From NCBI GenBank assembly GCA_016932115.1, contig JAFGDM010000199.1:1-40754 (forward strand): a stretch of 40,754 bases of DNA. Reading direction: 5' to 3'. The notes below the pieces were generated by a model. That model had not been told where the DNA came from, searched no databases, and saw only the letters and a program-made list of their open reading frames with translations. Position 1 is the stretch's first letter; every line of letters begins with the position of its first letter. Source of the stretch: Deltaproteobacteria bacterium (lineage in GTDB: Bacteria > Desulfobacterota > DSM-4660 > Desulfatiglandales > HGW-15). The translations under genes were made by a program, and so were the position numbers. Below, piece by piece: positions 2,162 to 40,052 of the stretch.

Positions 2162-3799
<1,638 letters not shown>

Positions 3800-3848
3800 T
3801 GCCTATTACAGGGGCCGTCGGATGTTGTTTAGGGAAGAACCTTAAAGG

Positions 3849-3880
3849 ATAGAGTCGATCCTGAGAAGGTCGGACTCTAT
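3849..3880. repeat. inverted repeat/hairpin between the convergent groEL and transposase genes
   Basis: ATAGAGTC-N16-GACTCTAT with partial inner pairing. The right arm contains the transposase stop codon (3877-3879). Confidence 0.55.
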
Positions 3881-4362
3881 ACATATTCAACATCCTGCCA
3901 TTTTCTTTTTGTCTTGCCCATCAACGCACTGTGCCCGCAATAGGCATACTTGTCCAAGCCATTAAAATCCTTTTCGATTTTAGCCCTTAGAAGATTTAAG
4001 TGGATGTATCGGACCAGTTCCTGAAAATATGCGTCTTCTTGGCAGATGATTGATTTATATCTGTTCTGAAATAGCTGACCGTGTCGCTTGTATCTTCTGT
4101 TAAAAGAAAGCGCGTAGCCTGTTAATAATCTTCTCAATAAGGTGGAAATACCGGATAGGCCGCTTGTCAAGAGCATATGGACATGATCGGGCATTAACAC
4201 CCATGAATAATATCGGGTCTTTGTTTTCGGCAAAAGGACAGAAAGCCGTTCGATAAAGTTTTCACGGTCTTTATTGTCTCTAAATATCTTCCGGCGCTCT
4301 ATTCCCCGTATCATTAAATGTTGTAATATGCCGAGTTTATCTAATCTGGCTGTTCTGGGCAT
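3877..4362 (-). mobile_element. REP-associated tyrosine transposase (RAYT)/IS200-like Y1 transposase
   Basis: MPRTARLDKLGILQHLMIRGIERRKIFRD..., YYSWVLMPDHVHMLL (HUH motif HVH), GQLFQNRYKSIICQEDAYFQELVRYIHLNLLRA. Confidence 0.9.
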
Positions 4363-4402
4363 ATCCGTTTTTAATCTTTAAACTGTATCATATCAAGTTA
4401 CT

Positions 4403-5815: not shown

Positions 5816-5872
5816 TGAATGTAGGTATCTCTATTCGGGTTGCCGGTATTGTAACAAAAATCAAGCTCATTG

Positions 5873-6793: not shown

Positions 6794-7127
6794 ATGGATT
6801 CCAAGATAGAGGAAGCAGGTTGTTTTTACAGAATTATTAAACGTTTTTAAGTGGTTAAAAACATGGGTAACCGGTTGATAATCACTTTGCTTTTAGAGCT
6901 CTTGACCCTGGTTATCATTTTTCACCAGCGACCTTACGGGCGGGCAGCAGGGCACGATCTTCGCTTTTATCCTTGGCATGGGCGGCCGTTTTAGGGGAAA
7001 AGTAACTCCCACACCGGCATCTGATCATAGGGTATCAATGTTCAGTAGAGCAACTAAAAGGTACTATAAGGCTTGTTTCTTTTCTTCACACCCGTCTACT
7101 CCGAAGAGACGGGATTGCTTCATCCGG

Positions 7128-7142
7128 TTTACAGTCTGTAAA
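7128..7142. promoter_or_regulatory. palindromic putative activator-binding site upstream of a sigma-54 promoter
   Basis: Perfect TTTACAG-T-CTGTAAA inverted repeat, about 108 bp upstream of the -24 element. Confidence 0.5.
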
Positions 7143-7248
7143 GAACCCGGTGGGGTGAAAGGAGCATAAGAAGAAGAGCTGACAAGCGGGCAAGTCAAAT
7201 CAATAAAAATATCAGCTTCCTATCCCGGTGTCTTGAACGGCGTTTCCC

Positions 7249-7264
7249 TGGCATGGCCTTTGCA
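7249..7264 (+). promoter_or_regulatory. sigma-54 (-24/-12) promoter
   Basis: TGGCATGGCCTTTGCA fits TGGCACGRNNNTTGCW with correct GG/GC spacing and lies 130 bp upstream of the kinase ATG. Confidence 0.7.
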
Positions 7265-7393
7265 AAAACTGACATTGGATCCTCATGATCGATAAGGTGT
7301 GAAGGCTCTTTAAAAAAACGCCCTCCGTGCAGACAGAGAAAGCTTGGCTGGGCAGCTTTTGTGGGCGGGAAGACTTGGAGATAGGTTGCGGGC

Positions 7394-13132: not shown

Positions 13133-13809
13133 CGACCCCCTGATTCGGCAAGCTCTTGGAGGGATCGGCCGTCTAAGATCTTGATGCGGCGGCCTTGGGT
13201 TTCAATCAAACCTTGGGCCGCCATTTTCGCCAAGATGCGGGAGAGGGTTTCAGGAATGGTGCCGAGAAGACCGGCCAACTGGGCCTTGGTGATGGAGAGC
13301 TCAAGGTCAGGGGAACCTTTTTTTTGTTTGCTCAAGTAGAGGAGGTAGGCAGCCAGGCGGCCTGGGACCTCCTTAAGGGAGAGGTCGTCGATAAGCGCAG
13401 TGAATCTCCGCAGACGTTTAGAAAGGATTCCAAGCATGTTTAGCGCCAGGGCCGGATTTTGCTTGATGAGATTCACAAAGGATTGTTTTGGAAAGAAGAA
13501 GACCCTGCTTTCTTCCATGGCTTCCGCGTGGGCGGGAAAGTTCTGGCCCGTAAAGACCGGCACTTCCCCAAAAGGTTCTCCCGGCCCGAAAATGTGTAGG
13601 ATTTGCTCCTTTCCATCAGCAGAGAGCTTATAGACCTTTACACGGCCTTGGATCACAACGTAGAACCCTTTTCCTTCCTCCCCTTCGGAGAAAATCACTG
13701 CGCCTCTCCGGAAAACCTGATCTGCCAGAATCATGGCGAGGTCTTCCAACTGGTCGGCGGGAAGCCCCTCAAAAAGAGGGATGTGGGCGATCGCCCGTAG
13801 AATGGTCAC
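13129..13809 (-). CDS. Crp/Fnr-family transcriptional regulator
   Basis: cNMP-binding fold (GAVIFSEGEEGKGFYVVIQGRVKVYKLSADGKEQILHIFGPGEPFGE) plus HTH (LAGLLGTIPETLSRILAKMAAQGLIETQGRRIKI). Confidence 0.92.
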   Translation of the reverse strand: MTILRAIAHIPLFEGLPADQLEDLAMILADQVFRRGAVIFSEGEEGKGFYVVIQGRVKVYKLSADGKEQILHIFGPGEPFGEVPVFTGQNFPAHAEAMEESRVFFFPKQSFVNLIKQNPALALNMLGILSKRLRRFTALIDDLSLKEVPGRLAAYLLYLSKQKKGSPDLELSITKAQLAGLLGTIPETLSRILAKMAAQGLIETQGRRIKILDGRSLQELAESGGR

Positions 13810-13923
13810 AAGACGCGTGGCCTCCGAGAACTTCCTTTTAAATCCGAAATTGGTGTTTTTGCAAGCCCATCAAGTTTTATATTTGAACTTCGGGATTTGG
13901 CATTTCTTAAGGGTTCTGTCCTC

Positions 13924-14526
13924 TCATCCATTGATGAGACGGACGACGGTGGAATCCTCCAAATAATCAATGACATTCAGACAGCCGTAATTTTGGTGCA
14001 GGCGAAACATGTGTGCAAGATCGAGTCCAAGGGCATTGCATAGAATGACACGATTAACCGCCGCGTGGCCTACAATGAGGAATTCTCGTCCCTCTTGGCG
14101 ACAAAGAATATCTTGGAAACAAGACATCACCCTTTGTGAAAGCTCCGCAATCGTCTCCCCCTCTCCAGGAGATCTGAAGTTCACAGGATCGGTCATGCGG
14201 CGTCGGATTTCTTCGGGAAAGCGTAATCGAACGTCCTGTAGCCCAAGGCCTTCCCAATCACCAAAATGAATTTCCCGGAGCTCTGCAAAAACATGATGAG
14301 GAACGTTATGGTGACGGCCGATTATGCGGGCACCCATGACGCCTCTCATGAGGTCGCTTGAGTAAACGGCCTGAATCTTTGTAAAACGCAACCGTTCGGC
14401 GATTTTTTCAGACTGGAGGATCCCCATCTCGGTCAGGAGAACATCGGTATGACCGTAAATAGGGACTCTCTCATAACCTTCCACTTGTCCATGTCTGACG
14501 AGATATAGCCGGGCGCCTTTTTCCAT
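13924..14526 (-). CDS. histidine phosphatase (phosphoglycerate mutase-like/CobC-like)
   Basis: LYLVRHGQVEGYERVPIYGHTDVLLTEMG...VYSSDLMRG...FLIVGHAAVNRVIL. Confidence 0.88.
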   Translation of the reverse strand: MEKGARLYLVRHGQVEGYERVPIYGHTDVLLTEMGILQSEKIAERLRFTKIQAVYSSDLMRGVMGARIIGRHHNVPHHVFAELREIHFGDWEGLGLQDVRLRFPEEIRRRMTDPVNFRSPGEGETIAELSQRVMSCFQDILCRQEGREFLIVGHAAVNRVILCNALGLDLAHMFRLHQNYGCLNVIDYLEDSTVVRLING

Positions 14527-14685
14527 GGGGAAGCATCCTAGAGGAAGCGGGCTTTGAAGTCAATAAAAGAGAAGGCGGGCGGCGAGGCTTCACAGGCACT
14601 TCGAGGATTGATCATTCCTGGCGATTCCCCGGACGTCCTCCGTCCGCCTCACCCGTTGCCCGGTGCATGACATAGCGATGTGGCT

Positions 14686-14715
14686 TCTTCGTTTTGCAGT
14701 TTTAAGAGAGAACCC
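14686..14715. repeat. dispersed repeat, copy B
   Basis: CTTCGTTTTGCAGTTTTAAGAGAGAACCCA; near-identical to copy A at 32947-32976. Confidence 0.5.
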
Positions 14716-14949
14716 AAGCTCAGGGCCGCCGGCATCAGCATTTCAAACAGCCAAATTGTTACCATATTTGCACTTTATATAAGATAGGCAAATGTTGTAT
14801 AAATAAAATATGAGAGTAGAGTGGTTCGGGGCGCAGGGTGCGGGTGATTTTTAGAAGGGGCCGTACGAAAAGCCAAGTGGCGTGCGCTCAAAGCAACGAC
14901 GGGGAATCAAGAGCTACATCAGCCAATGATCAAGAATGATGATCCAATC

Positions 14950-15216
14950 ATGAACGGAAAAAAAGCATGCTACGGTATTCTGGATCGAGTTTTTCCTGTA
15001 GGAGTGCGAGGGTTCCGGCAGGTACCTCCAGAGTGTTTTGAATGCCCGGATAGAGTTTCCTGCCTTAGGAAAGCGGTCAGCACAAAGGAAGGATTAGAAA
15101 TGCGGACTCAGCTTCTGGTGAGGGCAGAGCGGGGAGGTTTTATAGGAAAATTTCAGAGGTGGTCGCAAAAAAAACACATGAGCCGTCAGACTCACGGAGG
15201 TAAAAATGACCGTTGA
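14950..15216 (+). CDS. conserved hypothetical small Cys-containing protein
   Basis: MNGKKACYGILDRVFPVGVRGFRQVPPECFECPDRVSCLRKAV...: CX2C/CX5C-like cysteine spacing; overlaps the start of the next CDS. Confidence 0.6.
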   Translation: MNGKKACYGILDRVFPVGVRGFRQVPPECFECPDRVSCLRKAVSTKEGLEMRTQLLVRAERGGFIGKFQRWSQKKHMSRQTHGGKNDR

Positions 15217-16012
15217 CATCGTTTGCCCTCATTGTAGTTTTTCCAAGTCTGTGCCCGAGGATAAAATTCCTTTGGGCGCAAAGACCGCTATCTGCCCTCG
15301 GTGCAGGCAGCGCTTTGAAATACCGGACTTGGAAAATCTTAGAAGAATAAGGGCCGGCGGAGACCAAAGAAGGACGGCTCCCGCCTGGGAGATGCGGTCG
15401 GAACTCGGAATCGGAAAGAGTATTCTTGAATCTCTAAAGGGTGTTCTTTTTTCTCCTTCCAGGTTTTTCAGGAAAACGGCGGTGAACGGCGGCATCAAAG
15501 AGCCCCTTGCCTTTGGAATCATGATGGGCTCTCTGGGAATGATGTTTGAGATATCATGGCAGGGAGTGATGCGCTTCAGAGATCTACCGTCTCTAAGTCA
15601 AGAATATTTTGGGGATTTCAGATTTGGTTTTCTTATTATGGGGATAGTGTTGTTATGTCCGGTGATCTCAACCATCTTTATCTGCACCGCCGGTCTCGTG
15701 CTCCATTTCTTGCTCACGCTTCTAAGGGCTGGAAAAAGCGGTTTTGAGGCAACTCTGAGAGCTGTGTGCTATTCGCAGGCAACTCAGATTTGGGCTGTCA
15801 TCCCTTTTTTGGGAAGCTTTCTAGCAGGAATTTGGCTTATGGCGGTCACTGTCGTAAGTCTAAAGGAGATCCATAATACCACCTATGCCAGAGTGATTTT
15901 AGCGCTACTTATCCCTTTTGTCGTCGTTGTGATGACGATCGCAGCAGGTCTGATTTCATTCTTCGTAACATTTTATGAAATAACCCCGCGCCTGATGCTT
16001 GCGGGTTTTTAA
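15206..16012 (+). CDS. MJ0042-type zinc-finger plus YIP1-family membrane protein
   Basis: IVCPHCSFSKSVPEDKIPLGAKTAICPRCRQRFEI (CXXC...CXXC), followed by a YIP1-like multi-TM region. Confidence 0.8.
   Translation: MTVDIVCPHCSFSKSVPEDKIPLGAKTAICPRCRQRFEIPDLENLRRIRAGGDQRRTAPAWEMRSELGIGKSILESLKGVLFSPSRFFRKTAVNGGIKEPLAFGIMMGSLGMMFEISWQGVMRFRDLPSLSQEYFGDFRFGFLIMGIVLLCPVISTIFICTAGLVLHFLLTLLRAGKSGFEATLRAVCYSQATQIWAVIPFLGSFLAGIWLMAVTVVSLKEIHNTTYARVILALLIPFVVVVMTIAAGLISFFVTFYEITPRLMLAGF
15985..16010 (+). terminator. rho-independent terminator overlapping the 3' end of the YIP1 gene
   Basis: CCCGC-GCCTGATGCTT-GCGGG-TTTTT, where the T-tract leads into the TAA stop. Confidence 0.5.
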
Positions 16013-16072: not shown

Positions 16073-18232
16073 TTGGCAAATTGCATCAACTATAAAGAGG
16101 TTCTTAACGCTTCGCAACTCGAAGCGGTGATGACCCAAGAAGGTCCGCTGCTGGTTATTGCCGGGGCAGGAAGCGGAAAAACAAGGACCTTGGTCTACAG
16201 GGTGGCCCGTCTGGTGGAAACGGGAGTACCGCCGGAAAGCATTCTGCTTCTCACCTTCACGCGAAAGGCCGCCGCTGAAATGCTGGAAAGAGCGGCAAGC
16301 CTGGCAGATGAAAGATGCCGGTTCGTATCAGGAGGAACTTTCCATTCTCTTGCCCATAAAGTCCTTCGAGGGGCCGCCCATTTCCTTGGATTTGATAACA
16401 ACTTTACGATCCTTGACCGCTCAGATATGGAGGAAGTGATTCAATCTCTTGTTCAGGATATGACTATAGGAAGAGGGGCAATTCGTTTTCCGAAGCGTTC
16501 CACCTTAACCAACATAGTCAGCAAGGCGGCAAACCTCGAGTGCGGCATAGAGACCCTCATGGGCGAGGAATACGGCCAGTTCCTGGAATATGCGCCCCAA
16601 ATTAAGAAGCTTCAGGGCCTTTACGCAGAATACAAGAGAGATAATCAGCTCATGGATTATGACGACCTGATTGTCTTTTTGAGAGAACTTCTTTCCACTC
16701 ATGAGCAAACCCGCATGGTTCTAAGCGATCAGTATCGCTTTGTTATGGTCGACGAATACCAGGATACCAACAAGATCCAAGCCGACATCATTAAATGGCT
16801 TTCCAGGGACCATCACAATATCATGGCGGTAGGTGATGATGCTCAGTCGATCTATTCTTTCCGAGGAGCAAACTATAGGAATATGTTCGAGTTCCCAATG
16901 CTTTTCCCGGAGGCGAAGCTTATCAAACTGGAACAAAACTATCGTTCAACCCAACCTATCCTTAACCTGACCAACGCGCTGATGGGGCAAGCGCAAGAAA
17001 AATACACCAAGTGTCTGTTCACAGAAAGAAAGGACGGTGAGATTCCCAGGGTGGTGGATACTGGAACAGAGCCGGAACAAGCCTTCTTTGTCAGCACAAA
17101 GATCAAGGAAGAGATGTCCAGAGGGCGCTCCATTAGAGACTTTGCCGTGCTTTTCCGGGCCGGCTATCATTCTTTTGAACTGGAGGTGGAGCTGGCACGT
17201 CAGGGCATTCCATTTGTCAAATACGGCGGATTCAAATTCATGGAAGCGGCCCATATCAAAGATGTTCTCGCTTATTTGCGGGTCATCGTCAATCGGGACG
17301 ACGGCGTGAGTTGGGGACGGATCTTGAGGATGTTGAAAAACATCGGTCCTGGAAAGAGTCAAGCCATCATCGCCTGGATGAAGGAGAGCGCATGCTCTGC
17401 TTCTGAAATTGCCGCATGGCCTGGTGCCGGCAAAGCAGGTGAAGGTTTGAAGGGTCTGGCAAGTCTCTTGGGGGCACTGTCCGCTAGGGATTTTGCACCG
17501 ACCGCGGTTGTGGAACAGGTTGTGAAATACTATAAACCCATTCTTCAGGAGAAGTTCGATGACTTTCCCCGTAGGGAAAAGGACCTGGAGCAACTGGTCC
17601 TGATGGCGGAACGCTACCGGAAGATCAGCACGTTCCTCGACGATCTCCTTCTGGAACCGCCGAACAGCGCCGCAGAAATGGGCGTCGTCCATAAGGGAGA
17701 CTGTCTGACCTTGTCCACCGTGCATTCGGCAAAGGGACTGGAGTGGCCTGTGGTTTTCGTTATCTGGGTCATGGAAGGTTATTTCCCGCCTGCCAGGGCC
17801 AATGCTCATGAAGAAGCCATTGAAGAAGAAAGGCGGCTCATGTACGTTGCCGCCACAAGGGCTAAAGACAGGTTGATTCTATGCTATCCCGGCCGGGAGA
17901 CGGGTCGGAGTTGGTTTTCCTCTGAGGCGAGAGGACTTTCCTCTTTTATTCAAGCTCTTCCTCATGGCGTGGTGGAACATGCTTCATCGAGGGGACGGGG
18001 AGTTAGAGCGAGCGTGTGGGAGAGAGTCATGCCTCTCGGAAAGCGCGAAAGCAGGTTCATCGCTACAACCGAAAAACCCGAAGGGTTAAAAAAGGGGGAC
18101 AGGGTTCGACACCCAGCTTTCGGCCAAGGGGTTGTTGCCAAGCTCGTGGGCGAGGAAAAAGTTGAAGTCCTTTTCAAAAATGCGGGTAGAAAACTGCTCC
18201 ACCTGGGATATACCATTTTGGAAAAAGTCTGA
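16073..18232 (+). CDS. UvrD/PcrA/Rep-type superfamily 1 DNA helicase
   Basis: TTG start; LNASQLEAVMTQEGPLLVIAGAGSGKTRTLVYRVARL, VDEYQDTNKIQADI, AVGDDAQSIYSFRGANYRNMFEF, LSTVHSAKGLEWPVVFV, RRLMYVAATRAKDRLIL. Confidence 0.95.
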   Translation: MANCINYKEVLNASQLEAVMTQEGPLLVIAGAGSGKTRTLVYRVARLVETGVPPESILLLTFTRKAAAEMLERAASLADERCRFVSGGTFHSLAHKVLRGAAHFLGFDNNFTILDRSDMEEVIQSLVQDMTIGRGAIRFPKRSTLTNIVSKAANLECGIETLMGEEYGQFLEYAPQIKKLQGLYAEYKRDNQLMDYDDLIVFLRELLSTHEQTRMVLSDQYRFVMVDEYQDTNKIQADIIKWLSRDHHNIMAVGDDAQSIYSFRGANYRNMFEFPMLFPEAKLIKLEQNYRSTQPILNLTNALMGQAQEKYTKCLFTERKDGEIPRVVDTGTEPEQAFFVSTKIKEEMSRGRSIRDFAVLFRAGYHSFELEVELARQGIPFVKYGGFKFMEAAHIKDVLAYLRVIVNRDDGVSWGRILRMLKNIGPGKSQAIIAWMKESACSASEIAAWPGAGKAGEGLKGLASLLGALSARDFAPTAVVEQVVKYYKPILQEKFDDFPRREKDLEQLVLMAERYRKISTFLDDLLLEPPNSAAEMGVVHKGDCLTLSTVHSAKGLEWPVVFVIWVMEGYFPPARANAHEEAIEEERRLMYVAATRAKDRLILCYPGRETGRSWFSSEARGLSSFIQALPHGVVEHASSRGRGVRASVWERVMPLGKRESRFIATTEKPEGLKKGDRVRHPAFGQGVVAKLVGEEKVEVLFKNAGRKLLHLGYTILEKV

Positions 18233-18337
18233 TTTTCATGATATATTTCTTGTTTCCATATGATGCTGATTCATCAAACCTGACTGCGATGAGATGATCC
18301 TAGACTCAGAAAGTGATGAAGAAAACAGCGAAAGGTT

Positions 18338-18826
18338 TTAATACTTTATGAGGTCATCCCAAAAATCGGGATCTTGATCCTTCCAATTTTTTCCAAACCT
18401 CCTATCGCAGAACCCGCTTAGCCTCTCGTACCATTTTGTCCAGGAGTTTTGCTTTTTAGCCCTCGCTTCAAGCACATCCGCTAAGTAGAGAGCAATGTTG
18501 CTGATCTCGTCCTTCGGGGCGTAAAACGCTGCGCCCCTTTCTGCGGACTTCTTCAAATCTTCTTTGGTGAGTGCGTGGGCCGTCAGCATCAGTGCAGGGA
18601 TGTCTCTTCGGGTGGCTATGTCAAGCAAATCGTAGCCTCGGACACCCATGATGTCCAGGATAGCGGCATGGTATCGGTTTTTCTCAAGAAGCACCTTGGC
18701 GTCCTCATAGCTTGAGGCGGTATCGATTTTGCACATGTCCAAAAGTTCATAAATCATTTGGAGGATATCTTCTTCGTCGTCCACGACGAGGATCCACTTT
18801 CCCTTTAATGCCTTGCTGTTATCCAT
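18338..18826 (-). CDS. response regulator receiver protein (orphan)
   Basis: WILVVDDEEDILQMIYELL...AAILDIMGVRGYDLL...PALMLTAH...; Trp-rich C-terminal tail, no output domain recognised. Confidence 0.82.
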   Translation of the reverse strand: MDNSKALKGKWILVVDDEEDILQMIYELLDMCKIDTASSYEDAKVLLEKNRYHAAILDIMGVRGYDLLDIATRRDIPALMLTAHALTKEDLKKSAERGAAFYAPKDEISNIALYLADVLEARAKKQNSWTKWYERLSGFCDRRFGKNWKDQDPDFWDDLIKY

Positions 18827-18930
18827 TGCTCCCCCGTTGCAGATCGACAGCGTTGTCTCCTCGAGGGCCCCCTTTGCGATCAAGAGGGGTTATGCGAGGC
18901 GGCAAGCGCCGGGTGAATTGAATGAAAACG

Positions 18931-18977
18931 CCTCATACCGGGGTGAGAAGGATGTCTCAGCCCCGGTATCTGTGAGG
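18931..18977 (-). terminator. hairpin terminator downstream of the TRAP operon
   Basis: CCTC/GAGG plus ATACCGGGG/CCCCGGTAT stem with a TGAG/CTCA inner stem. T-tracts flank both sides (GTTTTTT on +, CGTTTTC on -). Confidence 0.6.
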
Positions 18978-19014
18978 TCGGTTTTTTCTATCCAGGCCTT
19001 CAGATGAAAAAAGC

Positions 19015-20055
19015 CTACTTGTATTCCTTGCTGTACTTTTCAACCATCTCTACCGTTGCCTTGAACACGGCTTCTCCATCAACACCCTTCTCGTTCGCCT
19101 GCTTGATGTATTCGTCGAAGACCGGTTTCACTGCATTCTTGAACTTTGCGGATTCTTCTTCCGAAAGTTGAATGAATTCATGGCCCAGCTTCAGGCAGAA
19201 TTGGCGTCCCGACTCATCACTGTCCCCCCACGCCTTGGCCGTGATGTCTTCATATTTCTTACTGACCTCGGTAATGATTTTTTGGAGGTCCGGCGGAAGG
19301 CTTTCCCATTTTTTGAGATTCATAGCGACAAAGAACCCCTGAGAATAGGAGCTGCTGTAGTTCAGCGTGGTATACTTGAGGACCTCGCCCTGCTTGAAGC
19401 CCTCCAGCGCCTCTATGGGGACCAAGGTGCCGTCTGCGATGTTTTTCTTAAGGGCATCATAGGTTTCACCCTGGGACATAGCCACGGGGGTGGCTCCAAA
19501 TGCCCTGACGATCAATTGGCTTGTTCCGGTTGATCGAATCTTCAACCCTTTTACCTGTTCCAGCTTGCTCACCGGCTTGTTGACCGTGTGCAGCAAACCG
19601 GGGCCATGGGCGAAGAGGTAGCACACATGGACATCGCTCAGTTCCTTGGGCTGAAACTTCCTGTTGAGCTCATTGATGACCCTTGTCGCTACAAAGGCGT
19701 TCGGGTATCCGAAGGGGTTGTCAACCGCCGATAGGACGGGGAAACGCCCCGGAGAATAGGCTAATACGGACAGGCCGAAATCCGAGATGCCTTTAACGAC
19801 TCCATCGTAGATCTGGGGGGCCGGTGTCAAAGATCCTCCGGTGAATATTTGTATCTTGATTTGACCTTTGGAGAGCTCCTCTATCTCCTTGGCCCAGGCT
19901 TCGGGAACCTTGGTTTGAATGTGAGTGGGGGGGAAGAAGGTGCTGTAGGTGAAGTTGTAGGTTGCCGCTTGGACTGTTGGGACGAAGATCGCCGCAGAAA
20001 GCACGACGAATGCCCCAAAGAAAACCAAACTTGCCGAAGTAAACACTTTTTTCAT
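19015..20055 (-). CDS. dctP: TRAP transporter substrate-binding protein (DctP family)
   Basis: Signal peptide; ATYNFTYSTFFPPTHIQTKVPEAWAKEIEELSKGQIKIQIFTGGSLTPAPQIYDGVVKGISDFGLSV... Confidence 0.93.
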   Translation of the reverse strand: MKKVFTSASLVFFGAFVVLSAAIFVPTVQAATYNFTYSTFFPPTHIQTKVPEAWAKEIEELSKGQIKIQIFTGGSLTPAPQIYDGVVKGISDFGLSVLAYSPGRFPVLSAVDNPFGYPNAFVATRVINELNRKFQPKELSDVHVCYLFAHGPGLLHTVNKPVSKLEQVKGLKIRSTGTSQLIVRAFGATPVAMSQGETYDALKKNIADGTLVPIEALEGFKQGEVLKYTTLNYSSSYSQGFFVAMNLKKWESLPPDLQKIITEVSKKYEDITAKAWGDSDESGRQFCLKLGHEFIQLSEEESAKFKNAVKPVFDEYIKQANEKGVDGEAVFKATVEMVEKYSKEYK

Positions 20056-20184
20056 TTCTCTGCCTCCTCTTTATTTAGTGGTTGTTGTGTCTATAAACTC
20101 CGCCTTCTTATACACGGTGCGAAAACCTTTCTTGTTTAAAACGCCTCCAAAAACCCTATACCTCGGCCTGTGCCGCCGATGAAA

Positions 20185-21489
20185 CTAATATGCCACAAAC
20201 TTCGGAAGAAATAGGGCGATTTGGGGGAAAAGAATCATGATCACAAGGTATGTGACCAAGGTCAGCACAAAGGGAAAGGCCCCTTTGAAGATGACTTCCA
20301 ACGGCACGTCTCTGGCAATTCCGCTGACTACATAGACATTGATCCCGACCGGCGGTGTTATTACGCCCAGTTCGGTCACGAGGACAACCACCACTCCGAA
20401 CCATATGGGATCGTAACCGATAGCAAGGGCAACCGGGTAAAAGATGGGGATAGTCAGCAGGATCATCCCCAAAGCGTCCATAAAAAGCCCCCCTATGAGA
20501 AAGAAAAGCATGATCACGAGCATAATGGCCCAGGAGGGAAGAGGGAGGCCCGCAACCCAGCCGGACAAGGTGTTGGGGATGGTGGTCACCGCCAGGAAGT
20601 GGCCGAAAACCGTGGCGCCTGCGACGATCATCAAGATCATACAGGTGGTTCGTGTTGAAGAATAAAGCCCCTCCAGAAAACCTCGCCACGAAAGCTGTCC
20701 GCGTACGAGGGGAATTACGACTCCCCCTAAAGCCCCTATGGCCCCCGCCTCAGTGGGCGTAAAAATGCCGATGAAGAGTCCTCCCATAACCAAAACAAAC
20801 AGAAGAAGGACTTCAGTAAGACCGGCAACGGCACTCAACCTTTTTTTGAAGCTCTGCTTTTCTACGCGGGGCGCGATGTCAGGTTTCAGGGAAACCCAAA
20901 TATAGATGGTCAGGATGAAAAGCAGGGAAAGAAGGATGCCGGGAAGGATCCCTGCCATAAAAAGCTTTCCTATGGATTGCTGAGTCTGGATTCCGTAAAC
21001 GATAAAGATCACGCTGGGTGGTATGAGAATGCCCAGGCTTCCCCCGGCTGCGACCACCCCTGTGGCCAGTTCATCGCTATACTTGAGTCTTTTCATCTCC
21101 GGCAGGGCGACCGATGCCATGGTGGCCGCTGTTGCGTTTGTGGAACCGCAGATGGCGGAAAAGGCGGCACAGGCGCCGACGGTTGCCATGGCAAGGCCTC
21201 CCTTATAATGTCCGAACCAGGTGAATGCGGCATCGTAAAGCTTGCGGCTGATGCCGGAGTAAAAAAGGATCTGTCCCATGAAGACGAATAGGGGAACAAC
21301 CGTCAAATCGTAAGAACTGAATACCGTGTAAAAATCTTTGATCGTGATATTGAGTGCCGCTGCAGGTGACACCAGGTATCCAAAACCCAGCAGGCCCACG
21401 AGGGCCATACAGAAGGCTACAGGAAACCTCGTAAACAAAAGGGCAATGAGGAGTAAAACGCCGATGATGCCGATGTGTGTAGGATTCAT
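20185..21489 (-). CDS. dctM: TRAP transporter large permease (DctM family)
   Basis: MNPTHIGIIGVLLLIALLFTRFPVAFCMALVG..., GGSLGILIPPSVIFIVYGI, FTPTEAGAIGALGGV; starts inside the DctQ stop (ATGA). Confidence 0.93.
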   Translation of the reverse strand: MNPTHIGIIGVLLLIALLFTRFPVAFCMALVGLLGFGYLVSPAAALNITIKDFYTVFSSYDLTVVPLFVFMGQILFYSGISRKLYDAAFTWFGHYKGGLAMATVGACAAFSAICGSTNATAATMASVALPEMKRLKYSDELATGVVAAGGSLGILIPPSVIFIVYGIQTQQSIGKLFMAGILPGILLSLLFILTIYIWVSLKPDIAPRVEKQSFKKRLSAVAGLTEVLLLFVLVMGGLFIGIFTPTEAGAIGALGGVVIPLVRGQLSWRGFLEGLYSSTRTTCMILMIVAGATVFGHFLAVTTIPNTLSGWVAGLPLPSWAIMLVIMLFFLIGGLFMDALGMILLTIPIFYPVALAIGYDPIWFGVVVVLVTELGVITPPVGINVYVVSGIARDVPLEVIFKGAFPFVLTLVTYLVIMILFPQIALFLPKFVAY

Positions 21490-21980
21490 GAAGCTCCTCT
21501 CTTCGTCCAAACGTGAAGAAGATTGACCAGAATTGCAAGGCAGAGGCCGAAAAAACAAATAGCCATGCAGTAGAGGATGGGATAGAAGGGGAGGAGCAAA
21601 GTCGGCGTGACCTCGCCTGCCGCTTTCATGTCCCCGGAGAGAAGAATAGCCTGCCAGACCAGAACAAGAAAAAGTGAAATACCGAGGAGATGGGTCAGGG
21701 TTTCAATAAACAGTTGCTTGCCTCTTGATAGGTTCTGTACCAGAATTTCAACGGCCACATGACCTTTTTTCAACATAGTATAGGGCATGGCAAAGGCGGC
21801 CAGTACGGCGCCCAGAAGGCTTACAACGTCATATGTCCCGGTTATGGGATTGTTGAAGAAATACCTCATGCAGATATCCGTACTGGTCAGCAGCATCATG
21901 GCTACAAGCGAGGCAGACGCTACCTTGTTGAATAATGAACTTAACCCTGTAACCGCTTTATCGAAAAAGGGAACTTTCAT
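21486..21980 (-). CDS. dctQ: TRAP transporter small permease (DctQ family)
   Basis: Four-TM DctQ pattern: LTSTDICMRYFFNNPITGTYDVVSLLGAVLAAFAMPYTMLKKGHVAVEIL. Confidence 0.9.
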   Translation of the reverse strand: MKVPFFDKAVTGLSSLFNKVASASLVAMMLLTSTDICMRYFFNNPITGTYDVVSLLGAVLAAFAMPYTMLKKGHVAVEILVQNLSRGKQLFIETLTHLLGISLFLVLVWQAILLSGDMKAAGEVTPTLLLPFYPILYCMAICFFGLCLAILVNLLHVWTKRGAS

Positions 21981-22026: not shown

Positions 22027-23682
22027 TTAATCACAAAAAGGAAGACTGTCTTTTCTCAGGGTAATCTCCCGGCCGTCTTCCTTCCTGATGAGGATGTTTT
22101 TCTGCCATTCGGGATTTTTCTCCTCCGGGCAGTCGGTGCGGTAATGGGCGCCTCTGCTCTCGGCTCTCAAAAGCGCTGCCTTACAAACCATCTTAGAAAC
22201 GAGCAACATGTTTTGGAAATCGATCCGTCTCATGATCTGAACCGGATTCTGTGCCCGGCATTTCTTGCTGAGAACCTGCAGCTCTTCGATTTGGCCCAAA
22301 GCTCTGCTGAGACCATCGGCGCTTCGGATAATTCCTGCATTTTCCCACATGATTGATCGGAGTGTGCGGCACAATTCCTTCGGGTCCTGACCGGTTTCCG
22401 CGAAAAGGGACTCCAGTAGAGCTCTTTCACCACGAATTTCTCTCTCCGGGATCTGTGAAGGAGCCGTTTCCCTTGCCCTCAGCCCCGCGTTTGTCCCTGC
22501 CGTTTCACCCGTGACGAAGACCTCCAAGAGGGCGTTTCCAGCCAGCCGATTCGCGCCGTGTAGGCCGGCACACACCTCGCCGGCGGCAAACAGTCCCTTC
22601 ATCTCTGTCTCGGCCTCCAAATCGGCCACGATGCCTCCCATAGAAAAGTGTGCCGTAGGAGAAACCACAAACTCCTTGATGGCGGGCGACCACCCTGCGG
22701 GGAGCAACGAAGAAAAGGTTGCCGTCTTTTCTTCCGGGATGTTGGTAATATCCATTACGACTCCCCCGCGGACCCCGAGACCTTGTTTGACCTCTTCCAT
22801 GATGGCCCTGGCAAGGCGATCTCTTGTAATTCTCACGGGTTCGTCCAACCCGTGTTTGGTCAAAACATCTTCGCCTGAGGCATTCTTGAGCCTTGCACCG
22901 GCTCGGAAGATCATCACCTCGTAAAGAAGGAGCCTGCTGCCCAGATTTCCCAATGCAGTGGGATAAAACTGAACAAATTCCATATCCTTCAACGGCACCC
23001 CAAGCTCGAAAGCAATGGCCTGTCCGTCTCCCTGGATCCCGGGTGCATTGTTGTTGTGAAGATAGATCCCGGCATATCCTCCGGAAGCCAGTACGGCACT
23101 TCGAAATCCCATGGAATAGAATGCACCGTCCTGAGAAATACCTGTGGCCGCACTTACCCGATCCCCTTGTCGAATGAGCGCCGTCACGGAAACCTTGTCG
23201 AGGAAGCGAACCCCGATGCGTTTTGCATAGTTCTTGATGGGTAGGATCAAGTCGCTCCCGGTCCGATTTTCTCCCCGGACGTGGCGTGGGAAGGTATGTC
23301 CCGGAACGTGATCGAAAACCATACGACCATCCTTCGTTGCGAATGAGACGCCACACTTCTCCATGAAAGGAATAACACTGTCAGCGCCTCTTGCCACCCG
23401 TTCCAGCATTCTCTTGTCGTTCAGGAAGCGGCCGCTCTGCAAGGTATCCTTCACATACACGTCAAGGCTGTCCTCCGGGTGTCCCATGCCGGGAACGGCC
23501 CAAGAGGCCTTCGAAAGGTAGGTGTTGTTTCCGAACCCCACTCTGGTTTTGGAAACCACAAGGACGTCCGCGCCCGTATCCCTACCGGCAATAGCGGCCC
23601 GAAGGGCGGCCCCGCCTCCGCCGATCACCAATAGATCACACCTGAGGGCATGGGACTTAAAAAATGTACTCGTACCTCTCAA
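22027..23682 (-). CDS. FAD-binding flavoprotein of the fumarate reductase/SdhA/AspO family
   Basis: CDLLVIGGGGAALRAAIAGRDTGADVLVVSK, EFVQFYPTALG, HFSMGGIVADLEAETEMKGLFAAGEVCAGLHGANRLAGNALLE. Confidence 0.88.
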   Translation of the reverse strand: MRGTSTFFKSHALRCDLLVIGGGGAALRAAIAGRDTGADVLVVSKTRVGFGNNTYLSKASWAVPGMGHPEDSLDVYVKDTLQSGRFLNDKRMLERVARGADSVIPFMEKCGVSFATKDGRMVFDHVPGHTFPRHVRGENRTGSDLILPIKNYAKRIGVRFLDKVSVTALIRQGDRVSAATGISQDGAFYSMGFRSAVLASGGYAGIYLHNNNAPGIQGDGQAIAFELGVPLKDMEFVQFYPTALGNLGSRLLLYEVMIFRAGARLKNASGEDVLTKHGLDEPVRITRDRLARAIMEEVKQGLGVRGGVVMDITNIPEEKTATFSSLLPAGWSPAIKEFVVSPTAHFSMGGIVADLEAETEMKGLFAAGEVCAGLHGANRLAGNALLEVFVTGETAGTNAGLRARETAPSQIPEREIRGERALLESLFAETGQDPKELCRTLRSIMWENAGIIRSADGLSRALGQIEELQVLSKKCRAQNPVQIMRRIDFQNMLLVSKMVCKAALLRAESRGAHYRTDCPEEKNPEWQKNILIRKEDGREITLRKDSLPFCD

Positions 23683-23847: not shown

Positions 23848-25410
23848 TCAAGTGTTCGGGTTCTTCTCGGTGTGTTTCGCCCTAAGCTTCGGCTTCTCGA
23901 TTTTGCCGGTTAGGCTTCTCGGCACTTCATCGAAAATAACCCGTCTCGGCCGCTTAAAACGCGGCAAATGCTGCTCAAAAAAGGATACGATCTCCTCTTC
24001 TGTCAAAACTTCGCCTTCCTTCGGTTGTATTACTGCGACAACGATCTCCCCCAGACGGTCGTCGGGAGCCCCTATCACAGCCACATCGTGCACCTTTGGA
24101 TGCTTCTGGATAGCCGCCTCCAGTTCCACAGGATAAATGTTTTCGCCGCCGCTGATGACGAGATCCTTTTTTCTGTCGACAAGATAGATGAACCCCTCCT
24201 CGTCCATTCTCCCCAGATCACCCGTATAGAGCCAGCCGTTACGCAGCACCGTTTTCGTGAGTTCTGGATTTCTATAATATTCCTTCATCAACCCGTCGCC
24301 TTTTACGACGATCTCGCCAACCTCGCCCCGGGACACTTCTTCACCCGTATCACCGATTATCTTTGCATCCCAAAAAAGACTCGGCTTACCGATGGCACCG
24401 ACCTTTCTCTCGTTTTCGGTCCCCAAATGAATGATGCCGGGTCCGGCGGTCTCACTCAACCCATATACGGTATCATATTGCATTTGAGGAAAGTGCCCCT
24501 TTAGTCGGTGCACCAAAACCGGTGGTATCGGTTGAGCACCCATGAAAGTGCGCCGCCAGCAGCTTAAATCGTACTCCTCAATTCTAATCTCCCTTCTGTC
24601 AAGGGCGTTGAGAAGGTCCACGGCCCATGGTACCAGCAAAAAAACCGCCGTTAGACGCTCTTTCGCTACAGTTTCAATGATGTGCCGAGGGGAGATTTGC
24701 TCGGTGAGTAGCACAGAACACCCTCCCGCAAGCATGACGGCCAACAGGTGTCCTATGGCGAGATGGTACATGGGGGGCATCATCAAAAACCGGTCGGATG
24801 AAACAAAGCCGTGATTGGTGGCCTCGGTTGCGGCGACACTCATAAGACTTTTCTGTCTAAGAAGAACCGGTTTGGGAGCCCCTGTTGTTCCTGAGGTGAA
24901 ATAAAGGGCGCATTCGTCTTTGTCCGACAGAACAACCGGAACGGGGTTTGGTGAGCCCTTTCCGGCGAGGTCTTCCAGAGTTGGGAACCCCTCCGCCTGC
25001 TCGGCTGCTATCACGCTATAGTGGCGCACCGTGTCGAGTTTTTCTCGAATCCTTTTTAACCTTTCCGCATATTCTTTATCAAAGATGAAGACCGAGGGCT
25101 CTGCCACACGGGCGCAATAGAGAAGGTCGTCATCCGTGAACCGGAAGTTGAGGGGAACCGCCCATGCTCCTGTCTTCAGTATGGCGAAGTAGGCCTCTAG
25201 CCAGGGGATCGAATTCCGGCCGAGGAGAAAAATCTTATCATGTCTTTTGATGCCTTTTTCGATAAGGCTGTTTGCAATCCTGTTGATTCTGGATCGGAAC
25301 TCCTCCCATCTGATCTCATGCCGAAGACCCGATAGGGGTCGGACTTCGACGAAAACCGGGCTTTGCGGACTCAGGCGAGCGAACTTTTCAATAACGTCGA
25401 TCAGATTCAC
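23848..25410 (-). CDS. AMP-dependent acyl-CoA synthetase/ligase
   Basis: LYFTSGTTGAPKPVLLRQKSL, YGLSETAGPGI, LYTGDLGRMDEEGFIYLVDRKKDLVISGGENIYPVELEAAI, RSLTGKIEKPKLR. Confidence 0.94.
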   Translation of the reverse strand: MNLIDVIEKFARLSPQSPVFVEVRPLSGLRHEIRWEEFRSRINRIANSLIEKGIKRHDKIFLLGRNSIPWLEAYFAILKTGAWAVPLNFRFTDDDLLYCARVAEPSVFIFDKEYAERLKRIREKLDTVRHYSVIAAEQAEGFPTLEDLAGKGSPNPVPVVLSDKDECALYFTSGTTGAPKPVLLRQKSLMSVAATEATNHGFVSSDRFLMMPPMYHLAIGHLLAVMLAGGCSVLLTEQISPRHIIETVAKERLTAVFLLVPWAVDLLNALDRREIRIEEYDLSCWRRTFMGAQPIPPVLVHRLKGHFPQMQYDTVYGLSETAGPGIIHLGTENERKVGAIGKPSLFWDAKIIGDTGEEVSRGEVGEIVVKGDGLMKEYYRNPELTKTVLRNGWLYTGDLGRMDEEGFIYLVDRKKDLVISGGENIYPVELEAAIQKHPKVHDVAVIGAPDDRLGEIVVAVIQPKEGEVLTEEEIVSFFEQHLPRFKRPRRVIFDEVPRSLTGKIEKPKLRAKHTEKNPNT

Positions 25411-25436: not shown

Positions 25437-26807
25437 CTACGGGAGAAAAAGCGGAATCAATGCGCGTGCATCGCTCAGTTGCTCGATTTGAGCTACGCCG
25501 TCAACTATCTCTTGCACTTTTTCTTCCTTGGGCGGGTTCTTTGCATAGGCGATACAGTCGCGGAAACGGGCTTCGTGCTCCTCCTTCGTGAGTGGGTTGC
25601 CGGGAAAACCGGGGGCGATATCGATCCCGCGAAAGAACTCCCTTCCGTCCTTTGTCCGCACGGTCATGTCAACGGGCGTGTGACCCCGTGGTTCCATTGC
25701 CGGATCCATCACGACCTCCACCCGGCGAACGAGCTCCGACACCTTGGGATCGCGGACAGCCTCTTCTTCAAAGTGGGCCAACTTGGAGCTGCCGCGAAGG
25801 ATCGCATTTGCAACACAGTAGCGAATACTGAACTGGGCGTTTACCCGAGGTGTGGCGCCCATTTCAAAGGGGTGGCCGACAAGCTTGTAGGCGTAAGGGG
25901 GCACCTTTACCTCAACCCTGTCCACGTTGTCGGCCGAGATACTTCTCCCCTCCGTTTCACGCAACAGGTTTAAGATAACCTCGGTGCTGCCCAGGGTGAG
26001 TCCACAGCTCGGATACTTTTTAAAGAGGATATTTTTACACTCGAAGCGACTGCCCATATCAGCCAGCGCATACCTCGGATCGACAAGACCCCTTCCATAT
26101 AGGTTATAATAACCGTAAACGCCCTGGAGGAAGTTTTTCGGGCCGGTGATCCCCGCCCGCGCCAACCTGGCACACATCACGCCCGATTCTGCAACCCATC
26201 CCTGGATGACTCGAACAGCCAGTGAGCCGTCGACATTGCTTTGGAAACTCCCACCTGCTCGGTTGAAGGCCAGCGCCAGAGCGTTTCCGGTCTCCTCATC
26301 ACTGAGCCCGAGCACCCGCGAAGCGGTGGCGGCGGACGCAAACACCGTGCAAATACCAGTCGGATCGAGGCCGTTGTAAGCGGCCTCCGTCAGGTTCAGA
26401 CGGACTCCTACCTCGGCGCCTACGAGAAGGGCATTTAGAAACTCTCGGCCGGTAAGCCCGCCCCGCAGTTCCGCGGCTGCCAGGGCGGCGGGCACGGTTG
26501 AGGCACCGATATGGACACCGGGCGTAAGCGCGTCATCGAAATCGAGGGCCCGAGCCATAACCGCGTTTACAAGGGCTGCATTTTGGGCGGGGATACGGCC
26601 GCCGTGAACGAGGATGGAGGCCTCTTCTCTCCCACCCTGAGACAGGTAAAGATCAATTAGTGTCCGACAGCCGGCTTGTGTTGAACCGGCTATGGTCGTA
26701 CCGAAAACCGTCAGCAACTGGTTCTTGATCGTCTCAAGGACTTCCGGCGCAACACCGTCATAGGAGGTGTGGGAGATAAATCGCGAAAGTTCGCATTCTA
26801 TGGTCAA
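25437..26807 (-). CDS. MmgE/PrpD family protein
   Basis: MTIECELSRFISHTSYDGVAPEVLETIKNQLLTVFGTTIAGSTQAG...ALDFDDALTPGVHIGASTVPAALAAAEL...KKYPSCGLTLGSTEVIL. Confidence 0.9.
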   Translation of the reverse strand: MTIECELSRFISHTSYDGVAPEVLETIKNQLLTVFGTTIAGSTQAGCRTLIDLYLSQGGREEASILVHGGRIPAQNAALVNAVMARALDFDDALTPGVHIGASTVPAALAAAELRGGLTGREFLNALLVGAEVGVRLNLTEAAYNGLDPTGICTVFASAATASRVLGLSDEETGNALALAFNRAGGSFQSNVDGSLAVRVIQGWVAESGVMCARLARAGITGPKNFLQGVYGYYNLYGRGLVDPRYALADMGSRFECKNILFKKYPSCGLTLGSTEVILNLLRETEGRSISADNVDRVEVKVPPYAYKLVGHPFEMGATPRVNAQFSIRYCVANAILRGSSKLAHFEEEAVRDPKVSELVRRVEVVMDPAMEPRGHTPVDMTVRTKDGREFFRGIDIAPGFPGNPLTKEEHEARFRDCIAYAKNPPKEEKVQEIVDGVAQIEQLSDARALIPLFLP

Positions 26808-27043: not shown

Positions 27044-28663
27044 ATGAAACGAGAGACCGATTACGGGCACCCGATTAAGGCTCTATACACGCCTGAAGAT
27101 ATAGGAAACCTAGATTACAAAAGGGATCTGGGTGATCCTGGTTCATATCCTTACACCAGGGGCTATTATCCGGATGGATATCGCAGTCGAATATGGACCC
27201 AGAGAATGACTGCCGGGCTTGGGTCTTCCCGGCAAACCAACGAAGTGCTCAAGCGATATCGTGAGATGGGCCAAAGGGGGGGTATGCTGGTCATTTGCGA
27301 CAGGACGAATGCGATGCCGATTGACCCAGATCACCCAATCGGCAGGAAAGAGGCAGGGGTATTGGGTTGGCCGGGGGCGTCACTTTTGGAATTTGAGGAA
27401 CTCATGGACGGTATTCCCCTGACGGGACAATCCATAACCCTGTTGGGTTCATGCGCGATGTCTTCCATACGTTTGGCCTATATTGTCGCTCTTGCAGAAA
27501 AGCGAGGAGTGAATTTAAAGGAAGTCCACGGCAGCGTCACGGAATACCCCTTCTGCACCACCTTCGGGCAGACCGACGCTCAGCCTTTGGATTTGGATTT
27601 GAAACTTTGGCTGGATTCTTCCGAATATATTGTTCGAAACAACATCCATATGAGATCGGGGATTCTCAGTCAACATTTTCAGGAGTCAGGCGGCAACAAT
27701 GCGCAGGCCCTTGCCGTGGAGATGGCAATGCTTAAAGAGCTTTGCACATTGTTGGTGAATGAACGGGGTCTGGATTTTGATGACGTCGCTCTCTTACCTT
27801 ATGAACTGGTGAGCGTCGGGTCGCGGTTCTTCGAGGAGGTAGCCAAAATCCGGGCTCTTCGGAGGATGTGGGCGAAAATGGCTAAAGAGACCTTCAAGGC
27901 CAAGAAGGAGAAGTCATGTCAGTTGCTCATATCCGTTCACACATCGGGTCGAACGATGACCTATCAACAGCCTCTCAACAACATAGCGCGATGCGCCATC
28001 CAGACCCTGGCGGGAGCCATTGCGGGTTGCACGGCCATCGACAATGCTTGTCTTGACAATGCCCAAGCGGAGCCCTCTGCGCTGGCAGCGAGGATGTCTT
28101 TAAATACCCAACACATTGTTGCGGATGAGACGGGGATAACGGATGTGGCGGACCCCCTTGCCGGTTCTTACTTTGTAGAGTACCTGACCAACAAGGTGGA
28201 GGAAGAAGCGTATAAAATATGGAACAAGCTAGAGGAACAAGGAGGCATGATTGCCGCAGTGAAGAAGGGTTATGTTCAGGAGATGATGAAGAAGTCGGCC
28301 CAGGAAAAACACAGGGAAGTGGAGAGGGGCGACCGATTAATCGTAGGCGTCAATGAGTTGGTAATACCCCTTGAAGAGGATTATCCGATTCCTATACAGG
28401 AGCTGAAATCGGGAGATTCGGAAGACATTGCAAGACGCATGGAGGAATGGAAGAAGACGAGGGATAAGTCTTTGCTGAAAGAAAAGATGGGGGAGCTCTA
28501 TTCGGATGCAAAAAAGGAGGATAGATATAATTTGATGCCGTCCATTATTGAGGCGGTCAAGGCTTACGGCACGGCAGGTGAAATCATGGGAGTGATTCGT
28601 AAAGCGCGCGGCCTGAGCTACGACTCTCTTGGAGTCATTGATTGTCCTTTTGAGTTCAACTGA
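27044..28663 (+). CDS. divergent B12-dependent acyl-CoA mutase, large (catalytic) subunit
   Basis: MCM-family skeleton: YPYTRGYYPDGYRSRIWTQRMTAGLGSSRQTNEV, PLTGQSITLLGSCAMSSIRLAYIVALAEKRGV, FFEEVAKIRALRRMWAKM, QQPLNNIARCAIQTLAGAIAG, DPLAGSYFVEYLTNKVEEEA. Confidence 0.9.
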   Translation: MKRETDYGHPIKALYTPEDIGNLDYKRDLGDPGSYPYTRGYYPDGYRSRIWTQRMTAGLGSSRQTNEVLKRYREMGQRGGMLVICDRTNAMPIDPDHPIGRKEAGVLGWPGASLLEFEELMDGIPLTGQSITLLGSCAMSSIRLAYIVALAEKRGVNLKEVHGSVTEYPFCTTFGQTDAQPLDLDLKLWLDSSEYIVRNNIHMRSGILSQHFQESGGNNAQALAVEMAMLKELCTLLVNERGLDFDDVALLPYELVSVGSRFFEEVAKIRALRRMWAKMAKETFKAKKEKSCQLLISVHTSGRTMTYQQPLNNIARCAIQTLAGAIAGCTAIDNACLDNAQAEPSALAARMSLNTQHIVADETGITDVADPLAGSYFVEYLTNKVEEEAYKIWNKLEEQGGMIAAVKKGYVQEMMKKSAQEKHREVERGDRLIVGVNELVIPLEEDYPIPIQELKSGDSEDIARRMEEWKKTRDKSLLKEKMGELYSDAKKEDRYNLMPSIIEAVKAYGTAGEIMGVIRKARGLSYDSLGVIDCPFEFN

Positions 28664-28698
28664 GTGATTTTCACAAAGCAGCATTATTTGAACGAGGT

Positions 28699-29118
28699 GT
28701 GCGGGATATGGATAAAAGGGAGCGAATCAAGGTGCTCGTTTCTGTTATCGGCCTTGACGGACACAGTATAGGCGCTGAGGTGGTATGCAGGATTCTTATG
28801 GACGCAGGAATGGAAGTGGTCTATCTGGGAATCTATCAGACGCCGGAGATGATTGTCCGCGCGGCCGTTCAAGAGGATGTGGATGTGATCGGGATAAGCA
28901 GCCATGCCTCAAACTACGGCCAAATTATTGAATTGTTGGAATTGCTGAAAAAAAACAACTTAAGGGATGTCTGTGTCATCTGCGGAGGGACAATCCCGAA
29001 CCATCAGATGGATGAACTCAAGAAAAAAGGCGTAGCGGAAATTTTTCCCCCTCAAAGCACTTCGGAATCTATTGTGAATTTCATTGTTTCGAATGTAAAA
29101 AGGGAGGATGTTTCCTAA
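28699..29118 (+). CDS. B12-binding small subunit of the acyl-CoA mutase
   Basis: RIKVLVSVIGLDGHSIGAEVVCRILMDAGMEVVYLGIYQTPEMIVRAAVQEDVDVIGISSHASNYGQ...VICGGTIP: DXHXXG motif. Confidence 0.93.
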   Translation: MRDMDKRERIKVLVSVIGLDGHSIGAEVVCRILMDAGMEVVYLGIYQTPEMIVRAAVQEDVDVIGISSHASNYGQIIELLELLKKNNLRDVCVICGGTIPNHQMDELKKKGVAEIFPPQSTSESIVNFIVSNVKREDVS

Positions 29119-39420: not shown

Positions 39421-39447
39421 CTCCGCGATCTCTGCGCTCTTTGCGGT
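39421..39447. repeat. three degenerate tandem 9-mers between the tRNA-Ser genes
   Basis: CTCCGCGAT/CTCTGCGCT/CTTTGCGGT. Confidence 0.6.
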
Positions 39448-39489
39448 TACCTGATCTTCACGGCCAACCAAATCCTGTTTCCCGGTTCT

Positions 39490-39585
39490 TGGCGGAGAGG
39501 GTGGGATTCGAACCCACGTGCCCCGCTTTTCACGGGACAAGTCGATTTCGAGTCGACCCCGTTACGACCACTTCGGTACCTCTCC
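39490..39585 (-). tRNA. tRNA-Ser (CGA), CCA encoded
   Basis: 5' GGAGAGGTACCGAAGTGGTCGTAACGGGGTCGACTCGAAATCGAC...GGTTCGAATCCCACCCTCTCCGCCA; CGA anticodon, long variable arm. Confidence 0.95.
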
Positions 39586-39593
39586 CTGCCTTT

Positions 39594-40052
39594 TTACCTC
39601 CTCGAATGAAAAAATTTCTGCATCAGCTTGATGCATTCGTCGCCACGAATGCCGGACACGACCTCCAAGCGGTGGTTAAAGCGATCATCGGTATGGATGC
39701 TGTAAAGGGAGCCGGCGGCGCCCCACTTTGGGTCAAAGGCACCGAACACAATGCGGGAAACCCTGGCGTGAAGGGCTGCGCCGATGCACATGAGGCAAGG
39801 CTCCATCGTGACCACCAACGTAGCCCCCTGAATTCGGTAATTTCCGTAAACAGTTCCGGCCTTCCTCAGGGTCAGGATTTCTGCGTGTGCCGAGGGATCG
39901 TTCAAGGCGATGGATTGATTGTGGGCTCTTGCCACAATCGCACCGTCCGGATCGGCTAAAACAGCTCCGACCGGTACTTCGCCCTCTGCGAAACCTTTTA
40001 ACGCTTCACTCAAAGCCTCTTCCATAAAGGAGAAGAAGTCAATAGGCTTCAT
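39594..40052 (-). CDS. tadA: tRNA-specific adenosine deaminase
   Basis: DPSAHAEILTLRKAG, TLVVTMEPCLMCIGAALHARVSRIVFGAFDPKWGAAGSLY. Confidence 0.95.
   Translation of the reverse strand: MKPIDFFSFMEEALSEALKGFAEGEVPVGAVLADPDGAIVARAHNQSIALNDPSAHAEILTLRKAGTVYGNYRIQGATLVVTMEPCLMCIGAALHARVSRIVFGAFDPKWGAAGSLYSIHTDDRFNHRLEVVSGIRGDECIKLMQKFFHSRR

Follow-up and report, generated by a model that had tools for sequence, protein, structure and literature searches.

Few substrate types of acyl-CoA mutases have been characterised, and the residues at positions Tyr89 and Arg207 help to define them. In methylmalonyl-CoA mutase (MCM), we take Arg207 to be the carboxylate-binding arginine, following the P. shermanii structure, and Glu370, Asn366 and Lys604 contact the cofactor. 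The closest described systems, besides MCM, are HcmAB (HCM), isobutyryl-CoA mutase, and IaaGH, a two-subunit mutase of anaerobic aromatic degraders (PMC8360864). In this study, these systems are compared with a mutase encoded in the window, i.e., the whole 40,754-nucleotide stretch of DNA analysed, which is likewise a two-subunit mutase and belongs to a protein clade found mostly in such degraders.

Identification of the mutase genes

The following two genes encode the mutase:

27044..28663, plus strand: mutase large subunit (substrate-binding, TIM-barrel), 539 aa, ATG start, PF01642
28699..29118, plus strand: cobalamin-binding subunit, 139 aa, GTG start, PF02310

The original prediction of a divergent, two-subunit, B12-dependent acyl-CoA mutase was borne out, as both ORFs lie at these coordinates and the Pfam assignments agree with it. 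The large subunit scored 417.7 bits against MM_CoA_mutase (PF01642; cut-off 22.1) and its gene (27044-28663) has a GAGGAG on the 5' side, while the small subunit scored 79.7 bits against B12-binding (PF02310) and matched 2yxb and 4r3u_C by phmmer. The same genome (3.73 Mb, 323 contigs) carries three mutase paralogues, with 581-783 bits on MM_CoA_mutase, which are only ~35% identical to the window mutase. Equivalog profiles for methylmalonyl-CoA mutase (NF006944, 270.4 against 876 bits; TIGR00642, 148.3 against 617) and for IcmF (NF045497, 99.5 against 1500 bits) all stayed below their cut-offs.

All the altered motifs that had been quoted from the sequence were found, and they aligned where claimed without gap tricks. 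In the large subunit these are RMTAGLG (54-60), GSVTEYPFCTTFGQT (163-177), SQHFQESGG (209-217) and HTSGRT (299-304). The small subunit reads GLDGHSIG, so that DxHxxG is kept, as predicted, with D-x-H present in all orthologues read, and the SSLAGGH-type segment reads SSHASNYG in the alignment. The motifs thus stay divergent in a real alignment rather than becoming normal after gap adjustment.

An AlphaFold2 model of the large subunit, built from 30 sequences including outgroups, had a mean pLDDT of 79 and a pTM of 0.83 (pLDDT 68 from the 25 orthologues only), and its best Foldseek matches were HCM 4r3u (TM 0.85) and MCM, followed by IcmF. The model is weak at 28-53, 302-310 and 335-344 (the Glu370 position falls in this third stretch), so that the active-site loop is too poorly modelled for docking.

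Residue changes and phylogeny

We aligned 110 mutase sequences from the fetched loci with PDB-derived HCM (4r3u) and human, M. tuberculosis and P. shermanii MCM (the last being the Y89F entry); positions are given in P. shermanii numbering. The window mutase belongs to a clade of 29 proteins, all of which carry Thr at the Tyr89 position, as foreseen from the change of the MCM segment RQYAGFS to RMTAGLG, and all of which keep the His244 equivalent. Gln330 is replaced by His, position 117 is Cys, Ser or His, and the DGHDRG of the cobalamin subunit is without its Asp-Arg (DGHSIG in the window), although DxHxxG retains its Asp, His and Gly. The alignment also brought out changes beyond the original prediction: Arg207 is absent in 29/29 (MAFFT places a gap there, and phmmer against HCM gives Gln), Asn366 is Ala in 29/29, Glu370 is Asn in 29/29 and Glu in all 85 other aligned sequences, Arg283 and Ser285 are lost, and the Lys604 position is Val in the window and Val or Met among orthologues.

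Large-subunit residues T56, H211, D333, N334, A335 and N339 are invariant among 25 aligned orthologues, and therefore the residue changes reflect neither chance nor decay. Because the carboxylate-binding Arg207 is absent in all 29, methylmalonyl-type or other dicarboxylyl substrates are unlikely for the clade, judging from sequence. The loss of Glu370, Asn366 and Lys604 leaves room for altered cofactor handling.

In the tree, the clade stood on a stem of 0.86 substitutions per site with a FastTree support of 1.0. Its members are 65-89% identical to the window protein and ~35-40% to everything else. It falls outside MCM, HCM and the Phe89/Gln207 (ICM-like) clade, in a tree without named ECM, pivalyl-CoA mutase, alkylsuccinyl-CoA mutase or IaaGH; IcmF was compared by phmmer and Foldseek only. 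The residues agree with this placement. The Tyr89 and Arg207 pair of the MCM/ECM type is lacking in 29/29; against the Ile89 and Asp117 of HCM, with clustering beside HcmA, the clade has Thr89, Cys/Ser/His117 and a separate position; and against the Phe89 and Gln207 of isobutyryl-CoA mutase it has Thr89 and, again, a separate position. Alignment and tree together support the predicted acyl-CoA mutase subclass with an unassigned substrate over a place inside a characterised clade. The enzyme class and the clade assignment, which like the residue changes were read from sequence, are strongly supported. The tree neighbour of the clade (L070, on a Paraburkholderia plasmid, 37%) is without His244.

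A GTDB scan returned ~28 orthologues of 65-89% identity, all from MAGs, in Desulfobacterota, Syntrophorhabdus, Syntrophus, Desulfosporosinus, Rhodocyclales, Burkholderiales and Rhodospirillales. The spread is patchy, with 5/85 genomes of the window's class, 6/399 in the family of L043 and 6/317 in the order of L042. Orthologues of 87-89% identity turn up outside the window's genus, and also in a second family of its order, which suggests horizontal transfer; in plasmid records, we found relatives of <40% only. We found no description of the clade in the literature on pivalyl-CoA mutase, 2-phenylpropionyl-CoA and uncharacterised mutase clades. It is a well-conserved, uncharacterised branch, mostly in uncultured aromatic-degrading anaerobes. 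The clade has replaced Tyr89, Arg207 and a cofactor-site residue kept in all other aligned sequences, yet across several phyla of uncultured anaerobes it is well conserved.

Several other mutases were encountered in the fetched loci. One MAG holds two diverged copies of the window-type mutase (L033 and L034), which are 83% and 77% identical to that of the window and differ in their ligases and transporters. A separate mutase clade, with Val89 and with Asp in place of His244, is common in the window's order (L008-L015, L019, L075, L076), and no characterised member of it was recognised in the alignment or tree. Locus L103 (G036:C105) has four divergent large-subunit ORFs within 15 kb (3510-5141, 5701-7509, 13596-15359 and 16493-18475), with Asn, Glu, Ile and Glu at the His244 position and Arg207 lost in all four, and is possibly an array of repurposed mutases. 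The contig of the window-type mutase in L058 also encodes, at 17917-21620, a second B12 subunit (DGHDRG type) together with a tandem pair of mutase-like ORFs that have Leu89/Asn207 and belong to another clade.

Genomic context

Upstream of the mutase in the window, the following genes are read divergently:

25437..26807, minus strand: MmgE/PrpD-family protein, divergently transcribed (PF03972, PF19305)
23848..25410, minus strand: acyl-CoA ligase (PF00501), partner of the mutase in 8 loci
22027..23682, minus strand: lone FrdA/SdhA-type flavoprotein (PF00890, PF02910), shared with L031
21486..21980, minus strand: TRAP small permease DctQ (PF04290), linked in 6 loci
20185..21558, minus strand: TRAP large permease DctM (PF06808; TIGR00786 over cut-off)
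19015..20055, minus strand: TRAP substrate-binding protein DctP (PF03480), linked in 6 loci

The MmgE/PrpD protein has the fold of a dehydratase, decarboxylase or epimerase; its nearest PDB entries are IRG1/cis-aconitate decarboxylase and IDS-epimerase (~85-104 bits), and it scored far under every named equivalog (41.5 bits against a cut-off of 575). Its gene adjoins the mutase in four loci, namely the window, L031, L033 and L035. The ligase is nearest to fatty-acyl-CoA and feruloyl-CoA synthetases in the PDB (247 bits), and a PaaK-like ligase stands in for it in most other loci. The flavoprotein reads QFYPT, where Tyr replaces the His that binds fumarate, as in urocanate reductase; by its sequence it is possibly an enoate reductase and may reduce an aryl-acrylate. 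Elsewhere in the window, the ORF at 39441-39959 (plus strand) is spurious, being antisense to tRNA-Ser (cga) at 39490-39585 (minus strand).

In the compared loci, whose ORFs were called by codon usage, the recurrent partners across several phyla are a TetR regulator, MeaB, a CoA ligase (often PaaK-like) and TRAP or Liv-type transporters. In L035, TetR, mutase, B12 subunit, MeaB, ligase, PrpD, ECH and DctPQM are all encoded on one strand, and the module is followed by an adenosyltransferase-like gene. The window and L031 share the divergent set of PrpD, ligase, FrdA-like flavoprotein and TRAP transporter. An acyl-CoA dehydrogenase or ECH lies nearby in L042, L137, L033 and L035, the dehydrogenase being in L042 and L137. 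In L038 (5597-9798), two HGD-D proteins and a BadFG-type activase lie on the same strand directly upstream of the mutase; the scores are under the benzoyl-CoA reductase cut-offs, so that the cluster does not count as proof here.

A racemase-type protein of the CoA_transf_3 family (GHDxNY) is encoded near the mutase in 7/32 loci (L037, L042, L048, L051, L053, L136 and L138), of which L048, L053 and L136 are related to each other; the GHD was read in L136 and L138. Against M. tuberculosis MCR, an alpha-methylacyl/2-arylpropionyl-CoA racemase, the L042 and L138 proteins scored 403 and 410 bits, far above their top CoA-transferase matches (~138 and ~124); the L037 protein is ambiguous by score, with a CoA-transferase ahead of MCR. 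CoA_transf_3 genes are over-represented near the mutase: over 20 loci, the genomes' own densities predict 0.81 such genes, and six were seen (Poisson P ~2e-4). The window neighbourhood itself has no racemase-type gene. The reaction of alpha-methylacyl-CoA racemases depends on an alpha-hydrogen, and a quaternary substrate has none. The racemase therefore points to an epimerisable alpha-carbon, and from this linkage we infer a substrate R-CH(CH3)-CO-SCoA with R larger than methyl.

As a marker of the benzoyl-CoA pathway, we used the ring hydrolase Oah/BamA (TIGR03200), which was over the cut-off in 22/28 bearer genomes, with fragments in three more. It was found in 5/6 bearers against 30/149 sampled non-bearers in Rhodocyclaceae (P 0.002) and in 4/5 sampled bearers against 33/194 (17%) in Rhodospirillales (P 0.005), with kinship and habitat uncontrolled in both. 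Within the window's class, where the marker is common anyway, the difference was not significant (4/5 bearers against 45/80). Part of the enrichment may be due to a shared anoxic habitat.

Proposed activity and alternatives

The neighbours suggest a branched 2-methyl acid, probably 2-aryl-propionyl, that would be rearranged for beta-oxidation and the benzoyl-CoA route; the linkage and co-occurrence are read from the genome sequences, and the activity, substrate and direction of the mutase are what we infer. In the reading that we favour, for which we consider the case finely balanced, this new subfamily of heteromeric AdoCbl mutases would convert a 2-methyl-branched, probably 2-arylpropionyl-CoA, to its linear isomer for beta-oxidation. 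More tentatively, the enzyme could be a so far undescribed B12-dependent mutase of 2-arylpropionyl-CoA, in which the adenosyl-binding site is remodelled and which would turn 2-phenylpropionyl-CoA or its hydroxylated analogues into 3-arylpropionyl-CoA, on a mobile peripheral pathway funnelling 2-arylpropionates to benzoyl-CoA metabolism in anaerobes. The fact that 2-methyl acids can usually be beta-oxidised without a mutase counts against the favoured reading, as do the small share of loci with a racemase-type gene (7/32, the window not among them) and the MmgE/PrpD and FrdA-like partners of the Desulfobacterota loci, to which it assigns no step.

In the proposed route, the acid would be taken up by the TRAP or Liv-type ABC transporter and activated by the linked ligase. 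Where present, the racemase would epimerise the thioester before the mutase acts, and beta-oxidation to benzoyl-CoA or an analogue would follow; in the Desulfobacterota loci, PrpD and the flavoprotein make an aryl-acrylate step possible. The cobalamin subunit would hold base-off AdoCbl via DxHxxG, and homolysis would give the 5'-deoxyadenosyl radical, which would abstract hydrogen from the CoA thioester in the large-subunit TIM barrel. The thioester carbonyl would then migrate in a 1,2-shift with the conserved His (MCM His244) as acid catalyst. The substrate would have no second carboxylate and would most likely be R-CH(CH3)-CO-SCoA, in which a bulky group, probably aryl, stands at R, giving R-CH2-CH2-CO-SCoA. 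The pocket would be opened by the Tyr89 to Thr change and would be without the carboxylate clamp, with otherwise ordinary AdoCbl radical chemistry.

An acid with a quaternary alpha-carbon, i.e., pivalyl-CoA converted to isovaleryl-CoA or an HCM-like tertiary hydroxy acid, whose product would enter central metabolism directly, is an unlikely alternative to the 2-methyl-branched substrate, albeit one with several points in common with the clade. In Methylibium PM1, HCM sits in a cluster of the same make-up (regulator, B12 subunit, AMP-binding protein, MeaB and mutase). Arg207 is absent in HCM also, HCM is the nearest solved structure, and 2-hydroxyisobutyryl-CoA synthetase is among the matches of the PaaK-like ligase (107 bits). 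However, the racemase-type proteins in the module require an alpha-hydrogen, the Asp117 of HCM is Cys, Ser or His here, and the aromatic-pathway enrichment is not predicted by a quaternary substrate.

It is improbable that the clade is an AdoCbl mutase with an altered cofactor site, using a different upper ligand, cobamide or radical chemistry. The uniform replacement of Glu370, kept in 85 others, in concert with the changes of the B12 subunit would fit it, but DxHxxG, the His244 equivalent, the MeaB linkage and the adenosyltransferase-like gene of L035 point to ordinary AdoCbl. IaaGH, the phenylsuccinyl-/benzylmalonyl-CoA mutase of anaerobic indoleacetate degradation, was our first reading, and was demoted to a rival on the absence of Arg207 and of conserved iaa genes. 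Such an aryl-dicarboxylyl-CoA mutase, or an alkylsuccinyl-CoA mutase, would agree with the benzoyl-CoA-pathway hosts, in which IaaGH too is a two-subunit mutase (PMC8360864), and with the indolepyruvate oxidoreductase alpha subunit near the L036 mutase. Judging by residues and context, we hold it to be decidedly improbable: Arg207 is missing in all 29, and the conserved surroundings of the mutase include neither an IaaF-like benzylmalonyl-CoA dehydrogenase nor any other iaa cluster that we could recognise.

If 2-arylpropionyl-CoA is indeed the substrate, the clade would open a route by which branched aryl acids, such as isoflavone breakdown products, profens and alkylbenzene intermediates, could be degraded where sediment and groundwater are anoxic. 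It would also provide a radical mutase for bulky substrates that is useful in biocatalysis.

Comparison with known systems

Methylmalonyl-CoA mutase shares the fold, His244, DxHxxG and the MeaB chaperone with the window mutase, but at 29-31% identity its Tyr89, Arg207, Asn366, Glu370, Arg283, Ser285 and Lys604 are all replaced in the window. The substrate of IaaGH has a free carboxylate, whereas the window clade is without the carboxylate-binding Arg and the iaa context. Isobutyryl-CoA mutase (IcmF, Phe89/Gln207 clade) resembles the window clade in its monocarboxylyl substrates, in Gln for Arg207 and in the proposed branched-to-linear chemistry, and differs in that IcmF is fused to its GTPase, carries Phe89 where the window has Thr, and forms a distinct clade. 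HcmAB is 35% identical and has Ile89, Asp117 and the conserved Glu370, where the window clade has Thr, Cys/Ser/His and Asn, and the HCM cluster was seen without the racemase-type genes and the Oah association found here. Nevertheless, HcmAB (Aquincola tertiaricarbonis 4r3u; Methylibium PM1) has separate subunits, no Arg207 and the same fold (TM 0.85) as the window mutase, and shares with the clade a module of ligase, MeaB, mutase and regulator.
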